A DNA stretch of 34,961 nucleotides, taken from positions 1 to 34,961 of the forward strand of contig JAQBNI010000092.1 in the NCBI GenBank assembly GCA_028288625.1. Direction: 5' to 3'. The translations under genes were made by a program, and so were the position numbers. Origin of the DNA: Bacteroidota bacterium. Its GTDB lineage: Bacteria > Bacteroidota > Bacteroidia > Chitinophagales > JADIYW01. Under the pieces are notes generated by a model. It saw only the letters and a program-made list of their open reading frames with translations. It had not been told where the DNA came from and searched no databases. Of this stretch, positions 12,772 through 24,839 are shown piece by piece (position 1 is the stretch's first letter; every line of letters begins with the position of its first letter).

Positions 12772-13794
12772 ATGTCTTACGCGAAATTAGAGTACATCTG
12801 GCTGGATGGTTACAAGCCGACGCAAAGCCTTCGAAGCAAAACCAGGATCGAAAGAGAATTCACCGGCAAACTGGATGATTGTCCAACATGGTGTTTTGAT
12901 GGTTCTTCCACAGAACAGGCGCCGGGAGGATCTTCAGACTGCTTATTAAAACCGGTATTTGTATGTCCGGATCCTGCGAGAAAATTCGGCTATCTCGTTA
13001 TGTGTGAAGTATTATCCCCGGATGGCACGCCGCATGTAAGCAATGGTCGTGCAACAATAGAAGACGATGACAATGATTTTTGGTTCGGTTTTGAGCAGGA
13101 ATATTTTATATGGAATCCCAAGATCGATAAGCCTATTGGCTGGGGTGACTTTACCTTAACAGGCGAGCCAGGTCCGCAAGGTCCTTATTATTGCTCTGTT
13201 GGTGGCGGAAAAGCTGTAGGACGTTATATAGTAGAAGAACATCTTGACCTTTGCCTTGAAGCGGGTTTAAATGTTGAAGGTATCAATGCGGAAGTTGCGA
13301 TTGGACAATGGGAATTCCAGGTATTTGCAAAAGGCGCAAAGGCAGCAGGTGATCAGACATGGATCGCGCGTTACCTGATGGAAAGAGTAGCAGAAAAATA
13401 TGGCTACAGCATTAACTGGCATTGCAAACCACTTGGCGATACCGACTGGAACGGCTCAGGCATGCATGCAAACTTCTCTAATGGCGTATTGCGTTCTTGC
13501 GGAAGCAAGGAAACATATGATACGATCTGCGAATCATTTCGTCCATTTATAAAAGAACATATTGAAGTATACGGCGCTGATAACGATCTGCGTTTAACGG
13601 GAAAACACGAAACACAATCTATTGATAAATTTTCATTCGGTGTTTCTGATCGCGGAGCTTCTATACGTATTCCGATTGCAACAGTAGACAAAGGATGGAA
13701 AGGATGGCTGGAAGACCGCCGACCGAACTCCGCTGCTGATCCATATAAAGTAGCGGCACGAATTGTAAAAACAGTGAAGACTGCAAAAGTATAA
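12772..13794 (+). CDS. glutamine synthetase, GSII (eukaryotic-like) type
   Basis: A 340-residue glutamine synthetase of the short GSII class. The beta-grasp domain (LEYIWLDGYKPTQSLRSKTR) is followed by the catalytic domain. Visible motifs are WCFDGSSTEQAPG, the glutamate-bearing FGFEQEYFIW, GGGKAVGRYIVEEH, NAEVAIGQWEFQVF, KPLGDTDWNGSGMHANFS, and RLTGKHETQSIDKFSFGV with SDRGASIRIP. It condenses glutamate and ammonia with ATP in the cytoplasm. The length and motifs exclude the approximately 470-residue GSI and the 700-residue GSIII. It is a single gene with a strong terminator right behind. A near-consensus -7 element (CATATTTG, 12721-12728) lies 43 nt before the ATG. GSII lacks the adenylylation site of GSI. 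Confidence 0.93.
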   Translation: MSYAKLEYIWLDGYKPTQSLRSKTRIEREFTGKLDDCPTWCFDGSSTEQAPGGSSDCLLKPVFVCPDPARKFGYLVMCEVLSPDGTPHVSNGRATIEDDDNDFWFGFEQEYFIWNPKIDKPIGWGDFTLTGEPGPQGPYYCSVGGGKAVGRYIVEEHLDLCLEAGLNVEGINAEVAIGQWEFQVFAKGAKAAGDQTWIARYLMERVAEKYGYSINWHCKPLGDTDWNGSGMHANFSNGVLRSCGSKETYDTICESFRPFIKEHIEVYGADNDLRLTGKHETQSIDKFSFGVSDRGASIRIPIATVDKGWKGWLEDRRPNSAADPYKVAARIVKTVKTAKV

Positions 13795-15440: not shown

Positions 15441-16799
15441 TTGAGAGATAAAAAATTAGCTGCTATTTTATTATTTGCATTGCTTACCAGGCTTGTTGTA
15501 TTTATTATTTTTCAGCCATGGAATGAAACAGTTGTTACAAATGACGTTTTTATTTATGATGCCATAGGGTATAACATCCTGGCGAAGTGCATTGCATTTA
15601 ATTTTTCTTTTTGCGCGGATACCTTCAGAACGCCGGTATACCCTGCATTTGTAGCTTTGTTTTACTGGCTGTTTGGTGTTAAGGTATGGGTTGTTTTGCT
15701 TGCACAAATACTTTTAAATGTGATCAGCGGATATCTTTTGTTTAAAATAAGTGAACGTTTATTTTTCAATAAAAACATCGGATATATTGCATTGATATTA
15801 TTTGCCCTGGATCCCCAGCAAATCATTTTCACTACTTATTTGTATACAGATACATTGTTTGTACTGTTTTTTCTATGGAGCATGTACTTATTCATTAAAG
15901 CAATTCAGGAAGGCAAATCAAGATTGTTTTTTTATTCAGGAATATTATTCGGGTTGACGATCTTAACAAGACCAATCGCAATCTATTTTCCTGTTTTATT
16001 ATTTGTATACATTATCGTGCAAAGAAATTTCTCACTTAAAATGAAATTAAGAAATGCCGTTCTGTTTACAGCATGTGCTTATTTAATGCTGGTTCCGTGG
16101 ATGTACAGGAATTATAAATCGTATGATCATTTTGCTTTAAGCTCAATCAATGGCTACAATCTTTTATTTTATAATGCAGCTTATACGGAAGTTAATAAAT
16201 CTCATAAAACTTATGACCAGGTGTGTAATGAATTTGTACAACTGGCAAAATCTGAAGCACCTGAAAATTTAAAATCACAAATGCCGCAAAATATAGAGCA
16301 GCGTTTACATGGATTGACATTTGAAAAATCTGATGTATATAATGATGTTGCAAAACAATATTTAAAAAAGAATTTATTTTCTGCTATTAAAGCGCATCTG
16401 TCAGGCAGTGTAAAGTTGCATTTGAATATGGGAAGTGAAGTGATCATGCAGCGATTGCATTTGCCTGTTAAGCGCTGGACGGATACTGAAAAATATTCGG
16501 GAAGTATTTTTACGCTCGCCAAGAGGTTTTTTAATTCTAAAACAACAGCAGAAGTAATTCTTGGATTGCTGGTGCTTGGATTTTTATTTTTTATTTATAT
16601 CACTGCTTTTATAGGACTCGTGCAGCTGTCTTTTGTGCAGAAACAATGGATGACAGCCATCTTTATCGTGATGCTGGTTGGTTATTTCGCATTTATCTCG
16701 GGCATTTTCTATACACCAAGATACAGGTTGCCGTTCATGCCTTTTTATATGCTGTTGAGCGGAATTTGTATTTCCGGATGGAAGAGAAGAATTTCCTAA
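15441..16799 (+). CDS. glycosyltransferase family 39-type membrane protein
   Basis: A 452-residue polytopic protein with about ten hydrophobic segments, related to ArnT/PMT-type GT39 proteins. The first loop after the opening helix carries the acidic residues expected of the catalytic base (TNDVFIYDAIGYN, Asp35 and Asp40), and RTPVYPAF and TRPIAIYFPVL match family positions. It probably transfers a sugar from a lipid carrier to an envelope acceptor. The start is a TTG at 15441; an in-frame stop upstream (15426) leaves no ATG, so TTG is the best choice. Its stop overlaps that of the convergent siroheme gene (16796-16799). It may be a single-gene unit. Confidence 0.78.
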   Translation: MRDKKLAAILLFALLTRLVVFIIFQPWNETVVTNDVFIYDAIGYNILAKCIAFNFSFCADTFRTPVYPAFVALFYWLFGVKVWVVLLAQILLNVISGYLLFKISERLFFNKNIGYIALILFALDPQQIIFTTYLYTDTLFVLFFLWSMYLFIKAIQEGKSRLFFYSGILFGLTILTRPIAIYFPVLLFVYIIVQRNFSLKMKLRNAVLFTACAYLMLVPWMYRNYKSYDHFALSSINGYNLLFYNAAYTEVNKSHKTYDQVCNEFVQLAKSEAPENLKSQMPQNIEQRLHGLTFEKSDVYNDVAKQYLKKNLFSAIKAHLSGSVKLHLNMGSEVIMQRLHLPVKRWTDTEKYSGSIFTLAKRFFNSKTTAEVILGLLVLGFLFFIYITAFIGLVQLSFVQKQWMTAIFIVMLVGYFAFISGIFYTPRYRLPFMPFYMLLSGICISGWKRRIS

Positions 16800-17377
16800 T
16801 CTTTATCTTTTTTTAGGAAAGATGAAGTGATCTCATTCAGCTTATCTACTTTATCCTTGAAATCTCCTTTTAAAGAATTTCTATATTGATTAAGATTTGT
16901 GATTAGTTCATTAATATTTTCAGGTAATACATCTTCAAAGAATTCACGCAACCGCTTTGATAGTGTAGGAGATTTTCCGTTTGTTGAAATTGCGATCTTT
17001 AAATCTCCCTTAGTAACAATACTTCCCAAATAAAAATCACACAGCTCCGGCGTATCTGCAACATTGATCAATATATTTTTATTCTTCGCCGCGCGATGTA
17101 TCTGCTGATTCAATTCTTTGTCGTTTGTCGCGGCAATAACGAGCTGTATATTTTCAAGATCTGATTCTTCAAATTCCTTATACTTAATTACTACTGACGA
17201 TCGACCATCGACCATCGACAAAATCTCCTGAGAGATCTTTTTCGCAATAACAGTAATATTTGATTCGGGTGAACTTTTTAAAAGCAATGAAATTTTTTCT
17301 GCAGCTACATTTCCACCACCGACAATTAATATATTGAAATTTTTAGTTTGCAGGAATATCGGGTAAAGCGTATTCAT
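16796..17377 (-). CDS. precorrin-2 dehydrogenase / sirohydrochlorin ferrochelatase (siroheme synthase N-domain)
   Basis: A 193-residue protein corresponding to the Met8p/CysG N-terminal half. The Rossmann NAD-binding motif is ILIVGGGNVAAEKISLLL, followed by ITVIAKKI. LVIAATNDKELNQQIHRAAKNKNILINVADTPELCDFYLGSIV is the family's core (cited as shorter pieces: LVIAATND and ADTPELCDFYLGSI). GDLKIAISTNGKSPTLSKRLREF supplies the end of the active-site region. It oxidises precorrin-2 and inserts iron to give siroheme, the cofactor of sulfite reductase. Its ATG overlaps the SUMT stop by 4 nt (ATGA), so it is coupled. An imperfect 7-nt tandem tract lies in the coding region at 17200-17219 (the MVDGRSS stretch). 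Confidence 0.88.
   Translation of the reverse strand: MNTLYPIFLQTKNFNILIVGGGNVAAEKISLLLKSSPESNITVIAKKISQEILSMVDGRSSVVIKYKEFEESDLENIQLVIAATNDKELNQQIHRAAKNKNILINVADTPELCDFYLGSIVTKGDLKIAISTNGKSPTLSKRLREFFEDVLPENINELITNLNQYRNSLKGDFKDKVDKLNEITSSFLKKDKD
17200..17219. repeat. 7-nt tandem tract inside siroheme synthase gene
   Basis: The plus strand reads ATCGACC ATCGACC ATCGAC, nearly three perfect copies of a 7-nt unit. It encodes the VDGRSS segment on the minus strand. A unit of 7 nt is not a multiple of three, so loss or gain of one copy would shift the frame. Confidence 0.7.
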
Positions 17378-18144
17378 ATTTTTTTTCCGGGGAATTTACC
17401 GGCATGTGCTTTTTCCTGCATCATGTAGTTTGAAGAATTTTCCACCACTTCACCCAACACAATAATTGCAGGAGATTTAATGTGATGCTCCGCTACCAGT
17501 TTTTCTATATCCGCTATTGTACCGGTAACCGATCTTTCATTTTGCAAGCTCCCGTTTTGAATAACGGCTACAGGTAATTCTTCGCCCCGGAACTTTTTAA
17601 AAATGGAAATGATCTTAGATAGCTGGCTCATGCCCATCAGCACAACAACCGTTGCAGAACTTTTTGCAGCTATTTCTATATCGCCGGATAATTTACATGC
17701 TGATGTTGTGCCTGTAGTGATCCATACACTTTCATTACTTCCGCGTTTAGTAAGTGGAATATTGTGCAGTGCAGGAATTCCTGTTGCGGAAGAAATTCCC
17801 GGAATCACTTCTGTTGCTATATCGAACTGCTGTGCATACTCCAGCTCTTCCTGTCCACGCCCGAAAATAAACGGGTCGCCACCTTTTAACCGTACCACAA
17901 TTTTATTTTGTAAGGCATGATGAACGATCAGCTTATTGATCTCTTCCTGTGAGGCATTGTGTTCTCCGTTGCGTTTCCCAACATAAATTTTTTCCGCTTT
18001 CTCTGCGTAATCCAGGAGATCAGTGTGTACCAATGCATCATACAATACTACATCCGCACGCTGCAAAGCTTTGATCCCTTTTAAAGAGATCAACTCCGGG
18101 TCGCCCGGTCCGGCACCTACCAGTATGAGTTTTTTTTGAGACAT
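17374..18144 (-). CDS. cobA: uroporphyrinogen-III C-methyltransferase (SUMT)
   Basis: A 256-residue SAM-dependent methyltransferase that converts uroporphyrinogen III to precorrin-2. Motifs present: VGAGPGDPELISLKGIKAL at the N-terminus, ADVVLYDALVH, YVGKRNGEH, VRLKGGDPFIFGRGQEE (the SAM/substrate loop), PGISSATGIPALHNIPLTKRG, and VLMGMSQL with ATVVV near residue 165. The length matches stand-alone SUMT, without a CysG fusion. It lies 11 nt after the sulfite reductase stop and overlaps the next gene, forming a reductase-cofactor operon. The coupling to siroheme synthesis suggests the operon supplies the cofactor together with its apoenzyme. Confidence 0.92.
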   Translation of the reverse strand: MSQKKLILVGAGPGDPELISLKGIKALQRADVVLYDALVHTDLLDYAEKAEKIYVGKRNGEHNASQEEINKLIVHHALQNKIVVRLKGGDPFIFGRGQEELEYAQQFDIATEVIPGISSATGIPALHNIPLTKRGSNESVWITTGTTSACKLSGDIEIAAKSSATVVVLMGMSQLSKIISIFKKFRGEELPVAVIQNGSLQNERSVTGTIADIEKLVAEHHIKSPAIIVLGEVVENSSNYMMQEKAHAGKFPGKKI

Positions 18145-18155
18145 GATGAAAGAAA

Positions 18156-20279
18156 TTATGCCTTATAGTTGCTTTCTACAACCAGCTTATCCGTGCCCAT
18201 TGTATTTTCCCTGTAAGCCATTACTTGTTTAAAAAGCTTTTCGAATTCAGAAACGTACGCTTCTGCAAATTCTTTTTCCGGTTCATTTTTATTGATGGAT
18301 AAAACTAAATTTTCAAATCCACCTTCCACTTTTAATTCTCCTGTTTCTACAAAAGTTTTATCAAAATCCTGCATGATCTTTATCTGCGTGTTACACTCAA
18401 CATCCTTACTCAATAGCATCGCTTTGGCAGCGATCACAAAACCGGTGTATGCATAATAAATTGCTTCCGCGTATTTTTCCTTTTTTAATGCTTCGCTCGC
18501 CTCCACCTGTTTATTATAGGCATCGCGGATAATCGTGCCGACCATGTCATACATGACACCTGCACATTCTCCCACACCGACTTCAGGTGTAAAATATTCT
18601 TCCATACCATAATCAAAATAATCATCATCCACAAATTTGCTTTGATCTGCAATTGGTTTCAACAAAGTATAGAAATAATTCTTTCCTAATCTTTTATAGT
18701 AATCATTAAAATATTCGGTGTCATTTCCATTCTGATCAAAATCATTCAGGATAGCGCGCAATGCATCCGGCATTTTTTTCGTAGGCAATTTTACGATCTT
18801 ATCACCAACAGTTCCGTTTCCGTTTTGGTCAACGCCGCCGCCTAATGCGATCTGCATGGCAGGCGCTACTTTATCACCAACACGTATAGAGCTTCCATGC
18901 AAACCAATACTTGCCGACATATGCTGTCCGCATGAATTCATACAGCCGCTCATTTTAATATGAATTGCTTTATCAAAAATGAGATCGTAATATTCTTTTT
19001 GAATCACATCTTCCAGAATTTTTGCAAGCGTCATACTATTCGTTACGCCGAGGTTACAGGTATCTGTTCCCGGGCAAGTAGTAATGTCCGCAATAGTTCC
19101 GTAGCCCGGATTTGCAAAACCCAATTCACTCAAAACACTATATACATAATGCAATGCAGCCTTGCGTACAAATTTGATCACCATATTCTGGTTCATCGTT
19201 ACGCGCATATCCTGCGATGCATAATCATTTACAAGCTGTGCTAATTTCCTCGCTTCATCCGGTTTAATATCTCCGTTCGTTACCTTGAGATACACACCAT
19301 AAAAACCTTTTTGTTTTTGCTCGAAAACATTTGTCTTCAACCAATCCTCATATAATTTCTGATCTGCAATTTCAACTTGCGGTATTTCTTTTTCTGCTGC
19401 AGGTTTCTGCTCAGGCACAGAATAAATATCGATCGGATATGATTTTACTTTATTGGCAACGCGCTCTTCATTTATCAATTCAAGAAACTTTGGCAAGCCA
19501 AGATCTTTCACCAAATATTTCATGCGCGCCTTATGTCTTCGAACGCGCTCTCCATAACGATCAAAAACACGCAAGCCCGCTTCAATAAACGGAATGATCT
19601 GGTCTTCCTCTAAAAATTCAAATGCAGTTTGCGCAGTGAATGCCTGCGCGCCAAGTCCACCGCCGACAACCACTTTAAAACCACGCTTGCCATCTACGAT
19701 CTTTGGAATGAAACCAAAATCGTGGATGTATGTAAATGCAGTATCCTTTTCGGAAGATGAAAATGCAATTTTATTTTTCCTACCCATATCCTGGCAAATC
19801 GGATTGCGCAAAAAGAAACGGAATGCTTCAAAGGTATAAGGAGAAACATCAAATAACTCATCGGGATCTACGCCCGCCTGGTCGGAACATGTAATATTCC
19901 TAACGGTATTGCCGCACGCTTCACGCCCTGTGATGCCAACATCTTCCAAACCTGTCCAGACTGCAGGTGCATTCTCCACTTTTAAAAAATGAAGCTGGAT
20001 ATCCTGGCGGGTAGTGAGGTGCAGGTTGGCATTACAATACTGCTCGGACAGTTCCGCAACGCGAATAATTTGCGGCGGTGTGATCCTTCCCATCGGTAAT
20101 TTGATGCGAAACATCTGAACGCCTAGTTGGCGCTGTCCATATATACCACGGGTTAAACGAAAAGCCTTGAACTTGTCTTCCGGCATTTCTTCATTCTTAA
20201 ATGAAGTGATCTTTTGCTGCAATTCGAAAATATCTCTTGCGGCTTCCGGGGTGATGTTTTTTGTGATGGTTACTGACAT
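18156..20279 (-). CDS. siroheme-Fe4S4 sulfite reductase (single chain, HEPN-type C-terminus)
   Basis: A 707-residue hemoprotein of the nitrite/sulfite reductase family. Two ferredoxin-like half domains are seen (RQLGVQMFRIKLPMGRITP and KPDEARKLAQLV). The siroheme/[4Fe-4S] cysteines are Cys402 and Cys408 (CPGTDTCNLG) and Cys446 and Cys450 (SGCMNSCGQ). The last ~110 residues (AIYYAYTGFVIAAKAMLL) resemble a HEPN-like helical tail seen in Bacteroidota reductases. It reduces sulfite to sulfide (or nitrite to ammonia). The Cys-rich leader upstream argues strongly for sulfite. It is first in an operon with SUMT and siroheme synthase. It starts at ATG 20279, after a terminator that must be passed by antitermination. 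Confidence 0.85.
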   Translation of the reverse strand: MSVTITKNITPEAARDIFELQQKITSFKNEEMPEDKFKAFRLTRGIYGQRQLGVQMFRIKLPMGRITPPQIIRVAELSEQYCNANLHLTTRQDIQLHFLKVENAPAVWTGLEDVGITGREACGNTVRNITCSDQAGVDPDELFDVSPYTFEAFRFFLRNPICQDMGRKNKIAFSSSEKDTAFTYIHDFGFIPKIVDGKRGFKVVVGGGLGAQAFTAQTAFEFLEEDQIIPFIEAGLRVFDRYGERVRRHKARMKYLVKDLGLPKFLELINEERVANKVKSYPIDIYSVPEQKPAAEKEIPQVEIADQKLYEDWLKTNVFEQKQKGFYGVYLKVTNGDIKPDEARKLAQLVNDYASQDMRVTMNQNMVIKFVRKAALHYVYSVLSELGFANPGYGTIADITTCPGTDTCNLGVTNSMTLAKILEDVIQKEYYDLIFDKAIHIKMSGCMNSCGQHMSASIGLHGSSIRVGDKVAPAMQIALGGGVDQNGNGTVGDKIVKLPTKKMPDALRAILNDFDQNGNDTEYFNDYYKRLGKNYFYTLLKPIADQSKFVDDDYFDYGMEEYFTPEVGVGECAGVMYDMVGTIIRDAYNKQVEASEALKKEKYAEAIYYAYTGFVIAAKAMLLSKDVECNTQIKIMQDFDKTFVETGELKVEGGFENLVLSINKNEPEKEFAEAYVSEFEKLFKQVMAYRENTMGTDKLVVESNYKA

Positions 20280-20361: not shown

Positions 20362-20394
20362 AAAAAAAGCCTGTCGCAATTAATGGACAGGCTT
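20362..20394 (-). terminator. attenuator terminator upstream of sulfite reductase
   Basis: On the minus strand AAGCCTGTC pairs with GACAGGCTT (20386-20394 with 20367-20375), 9 pairs with a 10-nt loop, followed by five T residues. It lies between the leader ORF stop and the sulfite reductase ATG, about 85 nt upstream of the ATG. Confidence 0.88.
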
Positions 20395-20421
20395 GTATTT
20401 TTAATTATTCAACCTATCCGT

Positions 20422-20472
20422 TTATAACGGACAAACACAACAACAATTGCATCGGTTGAATTTGCTTTTCAT
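20422..20472 (-). CDS. Cys-rich leader peptide
   Basis: A 16-codon ORF encoding MKSKFNRCNCCCVCPL with five Cys codons out of 16 (codons 8, 10-12 and 14). It ends at TAA and is followed by a hairpin and an intrinsic terminator, before the sulfite reductase ATG. It shares the MKS start and Cys content with the leader at 7550-7612, while the rest of the sequence is unlike, which points to selection for Cys codons rather than recent duplication. The ATG lies just after an A/T-rich stretch (TAAATTCG) that could serve as a -7 element, in which case the mRNA would be nearly leaderless. Confidence 0.78.
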   Translation of the reverse strand: MKSKFNRCNCCCVCPL

Positions 20473-20537
20473 TTATCGAATTTAATAATAATTATGCGAA
20501 AATGCTTGGTGTTAATGATTTTTTAAAGGAATCACAA

Positions 20538-23075: not shown

Positions 23076-23151
23076 ATTGCTCTGTATTTAACCGATGGAA
23101 TAACTTTTGAAATCTTCAGATCAAATATTATTAACCGCTAAAAACAAAAAT

Positions 23152-23598
23152 ATGAGAACATTAGTAAAAGCACAATGCGGCATACCGGCAACTAACAGGT
23201 ATTTTTTTGATGACATTTTCGGAAAAGAATTTTTCAACTATCAACCAAACGCATTTAAAACTGCACCGTTGGTAAACGTGAAAGAAAATGATAAAGAATT
23301 CTTATTGGAAGTATCGGCGCCGGGTTTACAAAAAGAAGATTTTAAGTTGCAAGTGGAGGATGGAGTACTCTCTATATCCGCAGAAGTAAAAACTCAAAAC
23401 GAGTCTGACGAAAACACAAAATTCACACGAAGAGAATTCAGCTATCAGTCTTTCAGAAAAAGTTTTACGTTGAATAAAGAAAATGTAGATACTGAAACCA
23501 TCGTTGCAAAATATGAGAACGGTATTTTAAATGTATCTATTCCTAAGAAGGTAAAAACTGAAGAAGAAAATAAAGCGAAGACGATTTCGATCTTATAA
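23152..23598 (+). CDS. Hsp20/alpha-crystallin family small heat shock protein
   Basis: A 148-residue small heat shock protein. The alpha-crystallin domain runs over the C-terminal two thirds, with FLLEVSAPGLQKEDFKLQVE, the GVLSISAEVK strand and the closing ENGILNVSIPKK motif. It binds unfolding proteins in an ATP-independent manner. I use the ATG at 23152; the frame opens at a TTG at 23107, but the N-terminus MRTLVKAQCGIPA is more natural. It is flanked by terminators on both sides, so it is a single transcription unit. Confidence 0.93.
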   Translation: MRTLVKAQCGIPATNRYFFDDIFGKEFFNYQPNAFKTAPLVNVKENDKEFLLEVSAPGLQKEDFKLQVEDGVLSISAEVKTQNESDENTKFTRREFSYQSFRKSFTLNKENVDTETIVAKYENGILNVSIPKKVKTEEENKAKTISIL

Positions 23599-23621
23599 TG
23601 ATCAGGAATAAGAATTACAAA

Positions 23622-23649
23622 CAAGGGAGTTGCTCCCTTGTTTTTTTTT
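23622..23649 (+). terminator. intrinsic terminator after Hsp20 gene
   Basis: CAAGGGAG pairs with CTCCCTTG across loop TTG, followed by nine T residues. The 8-pair stem lies 23 nt after the stop at 23598. The U-tract reaches the end of the convergent gene at 23648. Confidence 0.9.
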
Positions 23650-24772
23650 ATAGCTTAGCTTTCAGTTTATCTGCATAATCAGAATTCATCACCTTTAATT
23701 CCTGAACCATTTTTTTTGCATTCTCCGGCTTGTCTTGTTTTATATAAACCTGCCCGAGATAATATCTGCCCAGTTCGGTTTTACTGTCATACTGAATGGC
23801 TTTGATGAGTTTGGATTCTGCTGCTGAGTAATTTTTCTGGGAAAAATCTATCCAGCCAAGCTCCAGCCAAGCCACAGCATATTTAGGATCCACTTCAACC
23901 GCCTTATACAAATACGGTTGAGCTTCCTCATATTTTTCTTTTTCATTTAATATCCATCCCAGCCTGTAATTAGACACGGCGTTGTCCTTATCCGTTTCCA
24001 TTCCTTTCTTATAATAAATGATCGCCTTATCATAATCTTTCTGCGGTCCTTCCGTATAATATATATCTGCAACATTAAAATTATAAGTTGAATTATCGGG
24101 CATAAGGTCTGATGCAATTTTATAATTTTCCAAAGCAAGATCCTTTTGTTTTAGCTGACTATAAGCATATCCTAATTCATTATAAGCTTCCGCATATTTA
24201 TCATCAATAAGAATTGCTGCTAATGCATGCTCTACTGCCTTTTGATAATTTTTCTGATCGTTCATGATCCATGCGATCTTATAATTGGCGATCTTATTCT
24301 TCTTATCTATAGCCAGGCTCTTTTTATAATATACCAATGCATTATCATAATCCTTGCTGTTGTAATATGCGTCCGCCAAACCGATAATGGCATTGGCTTC
24401 TTCAGGATCTAAAGCGAGAGATTTCTTATATTTTTCGATGGATCTATCATATTGCTTCAACTTAAAAAGCGCGTATCCATACTCGGAATATAATTTTGAA
24501 GAAGGAGAGATCAAGATTCCTTTTTCCGCAGTATTTAATACATCTTCATGCTTACCCAATTCATTCTGGCAATATGCAATGTCATAATATGTAGTGCCGT
24601 TTTTCGGATTAAGTTTATTTGCTTTGAGATACCATTTTAATGCGCTTACCAAGTCATCATCCGCCTCAAAACCTTTCCCTTTTTTCAGGGCTGACTGTTC
24701 CGTTTCGGTTTGCGCATAGGCAATATTCAACACTAAGAATATGCTTGCAATGTATGTTAAAAGCTTTCTCAT
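23648..24772 (-). CDS. secreted multi-TPR protein
   Basis: A 374-residue exported TPR protein. The start at 24772 (ATG) gives a signal peptide MRKLLTYIASIFLVLNIAYAQ. Then about ten consecutive 34-residue tetratricopeptide repeats follow, each with the W/Y-G/A-Y pattern (NAIIGLADAYYNSKDYDNAL; IANYKIAWIMNDQKNYQKA). A helical scaffold of this kind usually mediates protein-protein contacts in the periplasm; a partner is not evident. A longer frame starts at TTG (24781). A TATATTTG -7 element lies 68 nt upstream (24840-24847). Confidence 0.85.
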   Translation of the reverse strand: MRKLLTYIASIFLVLNIAYAQTETEQSALKKGKGFEADDDLVSALKWYLKANKLNPKNGTTYYDIAYCQNELGKHEDVLNTAEKGILISPSSKLYSEYGYALFKLKQYDRSIEKYKKSLALDPEEANAIIGLADAYYNSKDYDNALVYYKKSLAIDKKNKIANYKIAWIMNDQKNYQKAVEHALAAILIDDKYAEAYNELGYAYSQLKQKDLALENYKIASDLMPDNSTYNFNVADIYYTEGPQKDYDKAIIYYKKGMETDKDNAVSNYRLGWILNEKEKYEEAQPYLYKAVEVDPKYAVAWLELGWIDFSQKNYSAAESKLIKAIQYDSKTELGRYYLGQVYIKQDKPENAKKMVQELKVMNSDYADKLKAKL

Positions 24773-24839
24773 TTTTTTCAAGTGAAGGTGAATTATTTTC
24801 TATTGCTTGTTGAAGAAGTATTGTCGAGCAGATATTATT

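Follow-up and report, generated by a model that had tools for sequence, protein, structure and literature searches.

The minus strand of the window, i.e., the 34,961 nucleotides of Bacteroidota DNA that were analysed, carries a short open reading frame (ORF) rich in Cys codons ahead of a reductase operon, which raises the question of whether transcription of this operon is governed by the supply of charged tRNA(Cys). A sequence-only reading had proposed an attenuator at this site, and this interpretation is supported by the conservation of the ORF and of all three mutually exclusive RNA pairings within the genus. The element is very probably a ribosome-mediated transcription attenuator of the trp/his type that would sense the charging of tRNA(Cys). 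It would give a concrete, testable account of how sulfite reduction and the supply of siroheme are tuned in these Bacteroidota, and Cys-codon attenuators with an intrinsic terminator would then be known from a new phylum and for sulfur-assimilation genes. The features are compiled in the table.

Table. Features of the Cys-codon leader and its operon in the window, and loci of relatives with tandem units
Feature	Position	Strand	Remarks
TTAAC box, upstream promoter-like element	20511..20515	(-)	conserved in 7/7 genus members
TAAATTCG, -7-like element	20477..20484	(-)	TAnnTTTG type of Bacteroidota
Whole element	20472-20362	(-)	between nfu (end 20538) and reductase ATG (20279)
Leader ORF MKSKFNRCNCCCVCPL, stop included	20422..20472	(-)	16 codons; ATG 20472, TAA 20424-20422; conserved in 7 genus members
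Strand 1 AUUCAACC	20454..20461	(-)	pairs with strand 2 GGUUGAAU; just upstream of Cys run
Control codons 10-12 (TGT TGT TGT)	20437..20445	(-)	
Further Cys codons of leader	20449-20451 and 20431-20433	(-)	
Small hairpin CCGTT-ATA-AACGG	20418..20430	(-)	RNA CCGUU...AACGG; stop codon within
Strand 2, antiterminator GGATAGGTTG	20410..20419	(-)	RNA GGAUAGGUUG; able to pair with strand 3
Strand 3 CAAGCCTGTCC, terminator 5' arm	20385..20395	(-)	RNA CAAGCCUGUCC
Intrinsic terminator, strands 3 and 4	20362..20394	(-)	9 pairs, 10-nt loop, seven T; arms AAGCCTGTC (20394-20386) and GACAGGCTT (20375-20367); T-run 20368-20362
Siroheme-type sulfite (NirA-like) reductase, by context	18156..20279	(-)	707 aa; predicted first regulated gene; Pfam NIR_SIR + NIR_SIR_ferr
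Uroporphyrinogen-III C-methyltransferase (SUMT)	17374..18144	(-)	NCBIfam NF004790 / TIGR01469 above cut-off
Precorrin-2 dehydrogenase / siroheme synthase N-terminal type	16796..17377	(-)	TIGR01470 above cut-off
Tandem loci L023, L024, L029, L030, L037, L038, L039, L041	upstream of reductase		
Tandem loci L043, L044, L045, L046, L047, L053, L060, L075	upstream of reductase		

The claimed 16-codon ORF is present on the minus strand with its five Cys codons, which occupy positions 8, 10, 11, 12 and 14, and it has no internal Met. When the 258-nt intergenic region was dinucleotide-shuffled 20,000 times, an ORF with at least five Cys in eight residues arose once. Comparison of the seven genus genomes, own included, that have the reductase and its upstream region revealed a leader in every one (MKSKFNRCNCCCVCPL, MKCLVSLSNCCCASPQ, MKNVVKLNNSCCFCPQ, MKRLVSLNTCCCFPPQ, MKQIVSLYNCCCSNPQ, MKLIVSLFINCCSCSQ and MKRVSLSNCCCAIPH), in which the start, the AAA second codon, the frame, the Cys run and the stop are all kept; indels within the ORF are limited to one of 3 nt, and the spacer beyond the ORF varies freely. 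The expectation that a Cys-rich ORF should recur in relatives was borne out in all seven genus members and in many distant Bacteroidota. A covariance model of the genus element gives one strong match per genome, always at the reductase, and no strong match in an eighth genus genome, which lacks the reductase. Its weaker matches are mostly bare terminator hairpins, and three of them (L165, L171 and L186) are genuine Cys leaders that belong to other genes.

The antiterminator, the nine-pair terminator with its T-run and their position ahead of the reductase start could all be confirmed, and the folding check proposed earlier recovered all three exclusive pairings, which are conserved in the genus. 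The element folds at -36.8 kcal/mol (z = -5.7 versus shuffles), and the complementarity of strands 2 and 3 in the window has p = 0.003 versus shuffles. A mechanical terminator scan, limited to loops of at most 8 nt, missed the terminator only because of its 10-nt loop. The postulated pause hairpin is the tip of the 1:2 structure; it carries the stop codon and shows covariation (CCG/CGG to CCA/UGG) among genus members. Relatives form the 1:2 pairing from GUCAGCYUA and UAGGUUGAC in place of the window's version. All 7 core pairs between strand 2 (GAUAGGU) and strand 3 (RCCURUC) are kept in the seven sequences, as are the 7 core pairs of strands 3 and 4, where two-sided changes indicate a covarying terminator. 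In each of the seven sequences, the 1:2 structure retains the stop hairpin and 7 to 11 of its 11 pairs; these pairing percentages favour the structure, since 2:3 and 1:2 were defined on a single relative (L005), a bias that affects the two-sided changes and the slid controls (20-45% paired) less. The covariation score of 1:2 and 3:4 exceeds all 500 shuffles and all slid controls. The parts of the element, their conservation, the exclusive pairings and the association with particular genes can be read directly from the sequences.

Strand 1 lies just upstream of the Cys run and would therefore be masked by a ribosome stalled on codons 10-12. When the seven sequences were folded with such ribosome blocks, the free RNA adopted 1:2 plus 3:4; a ribosome on the Cys codons left strand 2 free, and 2:3 formed in 7/7 before strand 4 was made; placing the ribosome at the stop codon allowed the terminator to form. 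At equilibrium, folding favours the terminator over the antiterminator, and the switch must therefore be kinetic, as is usual for such attenuators. We infer ribosome stalling, termination and a response to cysteine as follows. RNA polymerase would start a short way upstream of the leader ORF, whose 16-codon peptide a ribosome would begin to synthesise. With ample Cys-tRNA, the ribosome should reach the stop codon and cover strand 2, thereby allowing the 3:4 terminator to form and ending the RNA near 20362. If Cys-tRNA is short, the ribosome would stall on codons 8-14 and mask strand 1, leaving strand 2 to pair with strand 3 ahead of the synthesis of strand 4; formation of the terminator would then be blocked, and the polymerase could read into the genes for sulfite reductase, SUMT and siroheme synthase. 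An untranslated leader would form 1:2, and transcription would be terminated. The most likely purpose of this arrangement is that sulfur-assimilation genes would be read only when charged Cys-tRNA is short.

The label 'sulfite' for the reductase is drawn from gene context. The protein scores below the cut-off of the NCBIfam NirA/sulfite reductase model, and its closest solved structures by sequence are ferredoxin-nitrite reductases and NirA, with sulfite reductases giving weaker matches; the NirA of M. tuberculosis is itself a sulfite reductase. The assignment is based on the adjoining siroheme genes, on a CysH-like gene downstream of the reductase in one relative (L025), on the Cys leader itself and on the co-occurrence of PAPS_reduct genes: every reductase-bearing genus member has a second gene of this type, whereas the reductase-less genome has one, not two. 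The reductase, SUMT and siroheme synthase are pathway genes of the sensed amino acid, and the same applies to metY and cysM in the relatives described below.

The search for Cys-rich ORFs with a terminator before reductase genes that the sequence-only reading had suggested was fruitful across Bacteroidota. In 80 named genomes, 47 units of Cys leader plus terminator were found in 56 kb upstream of the reductase versus one in 1.14 Mb of flanking DNA, with thresholds that were set after the first examples had been seen and were used unchanged for the off-target control; the analysis is computational throughout, and most of its evidence comes from metagenome-assembled genomes (MAGs). The units occur in Chitinophagales MAGs, Saprospiraceae, Cyclobacteriaceae, Fulvivirga, Splendidivirga, Agaribacillus, Cesiribacter and Adhaeribacter, and a weaker Cys/Met form is found in two more families, one of which includes named Chitinophaga while the other groups with Sphingobacteriaceae. 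No leader of the terminator type was found upstream of the reductase in Spirosomataceae, Roseivirga, most Chitinophaga and a Flavobacteriaceae-like family (f25). On a tree of 109 reductases, on which the weak-leader labels were set by hand, leader presence is strongly clustered and requires at least 10 changes, which indicates that the leader has been both gained and lost. In a simple duplex test, the 2:3 complementarity reaches p<0.05 in 40 of 66 units, with about 3 expected, and is not significant in the other 26; by the same test, the 1:2 pairing outside the genus reaches p<0.05 in 14 of 66 units and is not established there. Pontibacter has poly-Cys ORFs, for which a terminator was not found; in L069, L070, L074, L092 and L094, the distance from the ORF start to the reductase downstream is about 470-570 nt. 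In the Pontibacter loci, L254 (around 1755-1873) and L025 (-1929), the Cys run lies at or beside the stop codon and has no clear terminator, and these ORFs are possibly a second type that resembles the mycobacterial one.

Cys leaders are also located before other sulfur genes. Five of seven testable relatives in the window's genus have a leader with terminator before metY, which encodes an enzyme of the O-acetylhomoserine sulfhydrylase type (L292, L293, L294, L295 and L298; e.g., MIKIFSMNAMCCCCKTE and MLNRFSMNMFCCCCMTV); some of these are Cys(-Met) leaders, and their antiterminator pairing has p values of 0.001-0.03. A close metY was not found in the window's own genome, nor was a Cys leader at the cysD/cysH loci of the genus and near relatives. 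In relatives more distant than the genus, such leaders with terminators precede a 2Fe-2S ferredoxin gene (L165), a 1-Cys peroxiredoxin gene (L252) and a PALP-JAB (cysM-JAB) operon (L244 and L249), in L249 with ThiS next, a combination that resembles the CysM-Mec-CysO route. These leaders have no sequence in common with that of the window and share in-frame Cys codons, an antiterminator and a terminator. In the own genome, poly-Cys DNA patterns gave far too many out-of-frame matches to be of use, and among the loci examined this non-exhaustive pattern search yielded only the known leader and a weak GTG-start candidate, L110, which sits inside what looks like other sequence. Several poly-TGY matches in relatives were dropped as repeats read in other frames.

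At sixteen loci, the reductase is preceded by a series of two complete leader-terminator units (e.g., MNFNTHIANSINNITCCCCCCCIRIL followed by MLNTRFPMMCCCCCCMIPRITCKVY in L043), and two units also precede cysM (L244:1485-1830). Two attenuators in series should sharpen the response. Moreover, in-frame ATG codons are enriched in the leaders (101 versus 14 and 20 in the other frames); 3' of the Cys run, 46 are in frame versus 7 and 5 in the other frames, and these cannot be alternative starts because they lie downstream of the run. Met follows the Cys run immediately in 22 of 56 units. This pattern suggests joint sensing of Cys and Met, which is plausible since sulfide feeds both Cys and, via metY, Met, and a leader with codons for both would allow a single RNA to respond to the two end products of sulfide. 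Non-homologous Cys attenuators of sulfite reductase, metY, cysM-JAB(-ThiS), ferredoxin and peroxiredoxin genes, with tandem units in Saprospiraceae and allies and, in many lineages, Met codons beside the Cys run by which one leader reads the supply of both Cys and Met, probably constitute a sulfur-amino-acid attenuation regulon of Bacteroidota.

The presence of redox proteins (1-Cys peroxiredoxin, ferredoxins) downstream of the relatives' leaders would also fit a nascent Cys-rich peptide that itself senses thiol redox state, a metal or persulfide and arrests the ribosome independently of tRNA(Cys) charging. However, the peptide is unconserved beyond the Cys run between operons or families, and the Met codons that join the run in many leaders fit the supply of sulfur amino acids better, which makes a peptide sensor improbable. 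Poly-Cys leader ORFs have been described in Mycobacterium, Propionibacterium and Bifidobacterium (Seliverstov et al. 2005, PMC1262725); they respond to cysteine and are referred to as translation attenuation in PMC13236596, which cites Canestrari et al. 2020. Like the leader of the window, they place runs of Cys codons before cysteine genes, but they lack a conserved terminator, which the window's element has. Control of this actinobacterial type, in which the stalled ribosome uncovers a ribosome-binding site or obstructs Rho and the hairpin plays a secondary part, could be considered in view of the terminator-free ORFs in Mycobacterium and others (PMC1262725) and of the few Bacteroidota named above (L254, L025, Pontibacter). 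It is very improbable for the window, given a strong intrinsic terminator with T-run, a dedicated and conserved antiterminator, and leader structures that finish well ahead of the reductase start.

Promoter-like elements are located in front of the leader. The upstream box reads (A/C)ATTAAC in genus members (ATTAAAC in one) and lies 25-26 nt, counted by eye, before the -7-like element in 7/7; the latter is TAnnTTTA in most relatives and is separated from the leader ATG by a few nt in 7/7. The RNA 5' end predicted from these motifs is likely to fall within about 10 nt of the leader ATG. In addition, the distance from the T-run to the reductase start has a median of 44 nt and a minimum of 25 across units, which leaves little space for a separate promoter. 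In the window, this distance is 82 nt, and about 65 nt lie between the end of nfu, on the same strand, and the leader ATG that follows; the hairpin might thus be the terminator of nfu, with a Cys-rich ORF that arose by chance and a reductase promoter further downstream. Yet nfu is adjacent in 8 of 92 loci only while leader and terminator stay with the reductase; the ORF frame, the Cys run and the antiterminator are conserved; the chance of such an ORF is about 1 in 20,000; and every genus member has the promoter-like pair ahead of its leader, all of which renders an nfu terminator highly improbable. A sulfur-metabolite riboswitch or protein-binding antiterminator, accompanied by an incidental ORF, would account for the strong conserved RNA structure and the sulfur-assimilation genes but is extremely improbable, as the window has no match at gathering score to Rfam 15 covariance models (T-box, known riboswitches), no aptamer is conserved outside the genus, and the non-homologous leaders share only in-frame Cys (and Met) codons and the antiterminator/terminator.

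The putative tRNA(Cys)-sensing attenuator shares with the classical trp/his/leu attenuators of Enterobacteria the leader ORF with control codons, the exclusive 1:2, 2:3 and 3:4 pairings, the U-run terminator and the biosynthetic operon. It differs in its control amino acid, Cys, in the lack of a Shine-Dalgarno sequence and in the predicted RNA 5' end near the leader ATG. Beside the trp/his/leu and mycobacterial systems that had been named as precedents, there is a published Cys attenuator with an intrinsic terminator outside Bacteroidota that had not been mentioned, namely the uORFC-8-2 motif in the cysS leader of Rhodobacterales, for which ribosome-mediated attenuation upon shortage of Cys-tRNA(Cys) was proposed (Brewer et al. 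2021, PMC8632094). Both have a short ORF with adjacent Cys codons, a stem in which the Cys codons lie and an intrinsic terminator; however, uORFC-8-2 has two Cys codons and is confined to cysS of Alphaproteobacteria (PMC8632094), whereas the Bacteroidota leaders precede sulfite reductase and other sulfur genes, have 3-8 Cys codons and are sometimes tandem, with Met. The window's element, upstream of a sulfite reductase gene in Bacteroidota, falls outside that motif. Within the phylum, leader-peptide attenuation before amino-acid biosynthesis operons was reported for Flavobacterium psychrophilum in an article whose main text mentions neither a cysteine nor a sulfite reductase case (PMC9723704). 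A cysteine attenuator of Bacteroidota was not found in the literature searched, and an earlier listing is possible in the survey of bacterial attenuators by Lopatovskaya et al. 2010 or in the F. psychrophilum supplement; its novelty is to be understood as 'not found' rather than 'shown absent'. The kind of attenuator and its Cys version before cysS are already known, and the tandem attenuators and the Met codons flanking the Cys run in relatives are new.

Two further features of the window lie apart from the operon. A glutamine synthetase of the GlnII type is encoded at 12772-13794 (+), with a score below the NCBIfam cut-off (367.9 of 500 bits), and a perfect 11-pair hairpin at 23619-23643, which resembles a bidirectional terminator, separates the converging genes 23107-23598 and 23648-24781.
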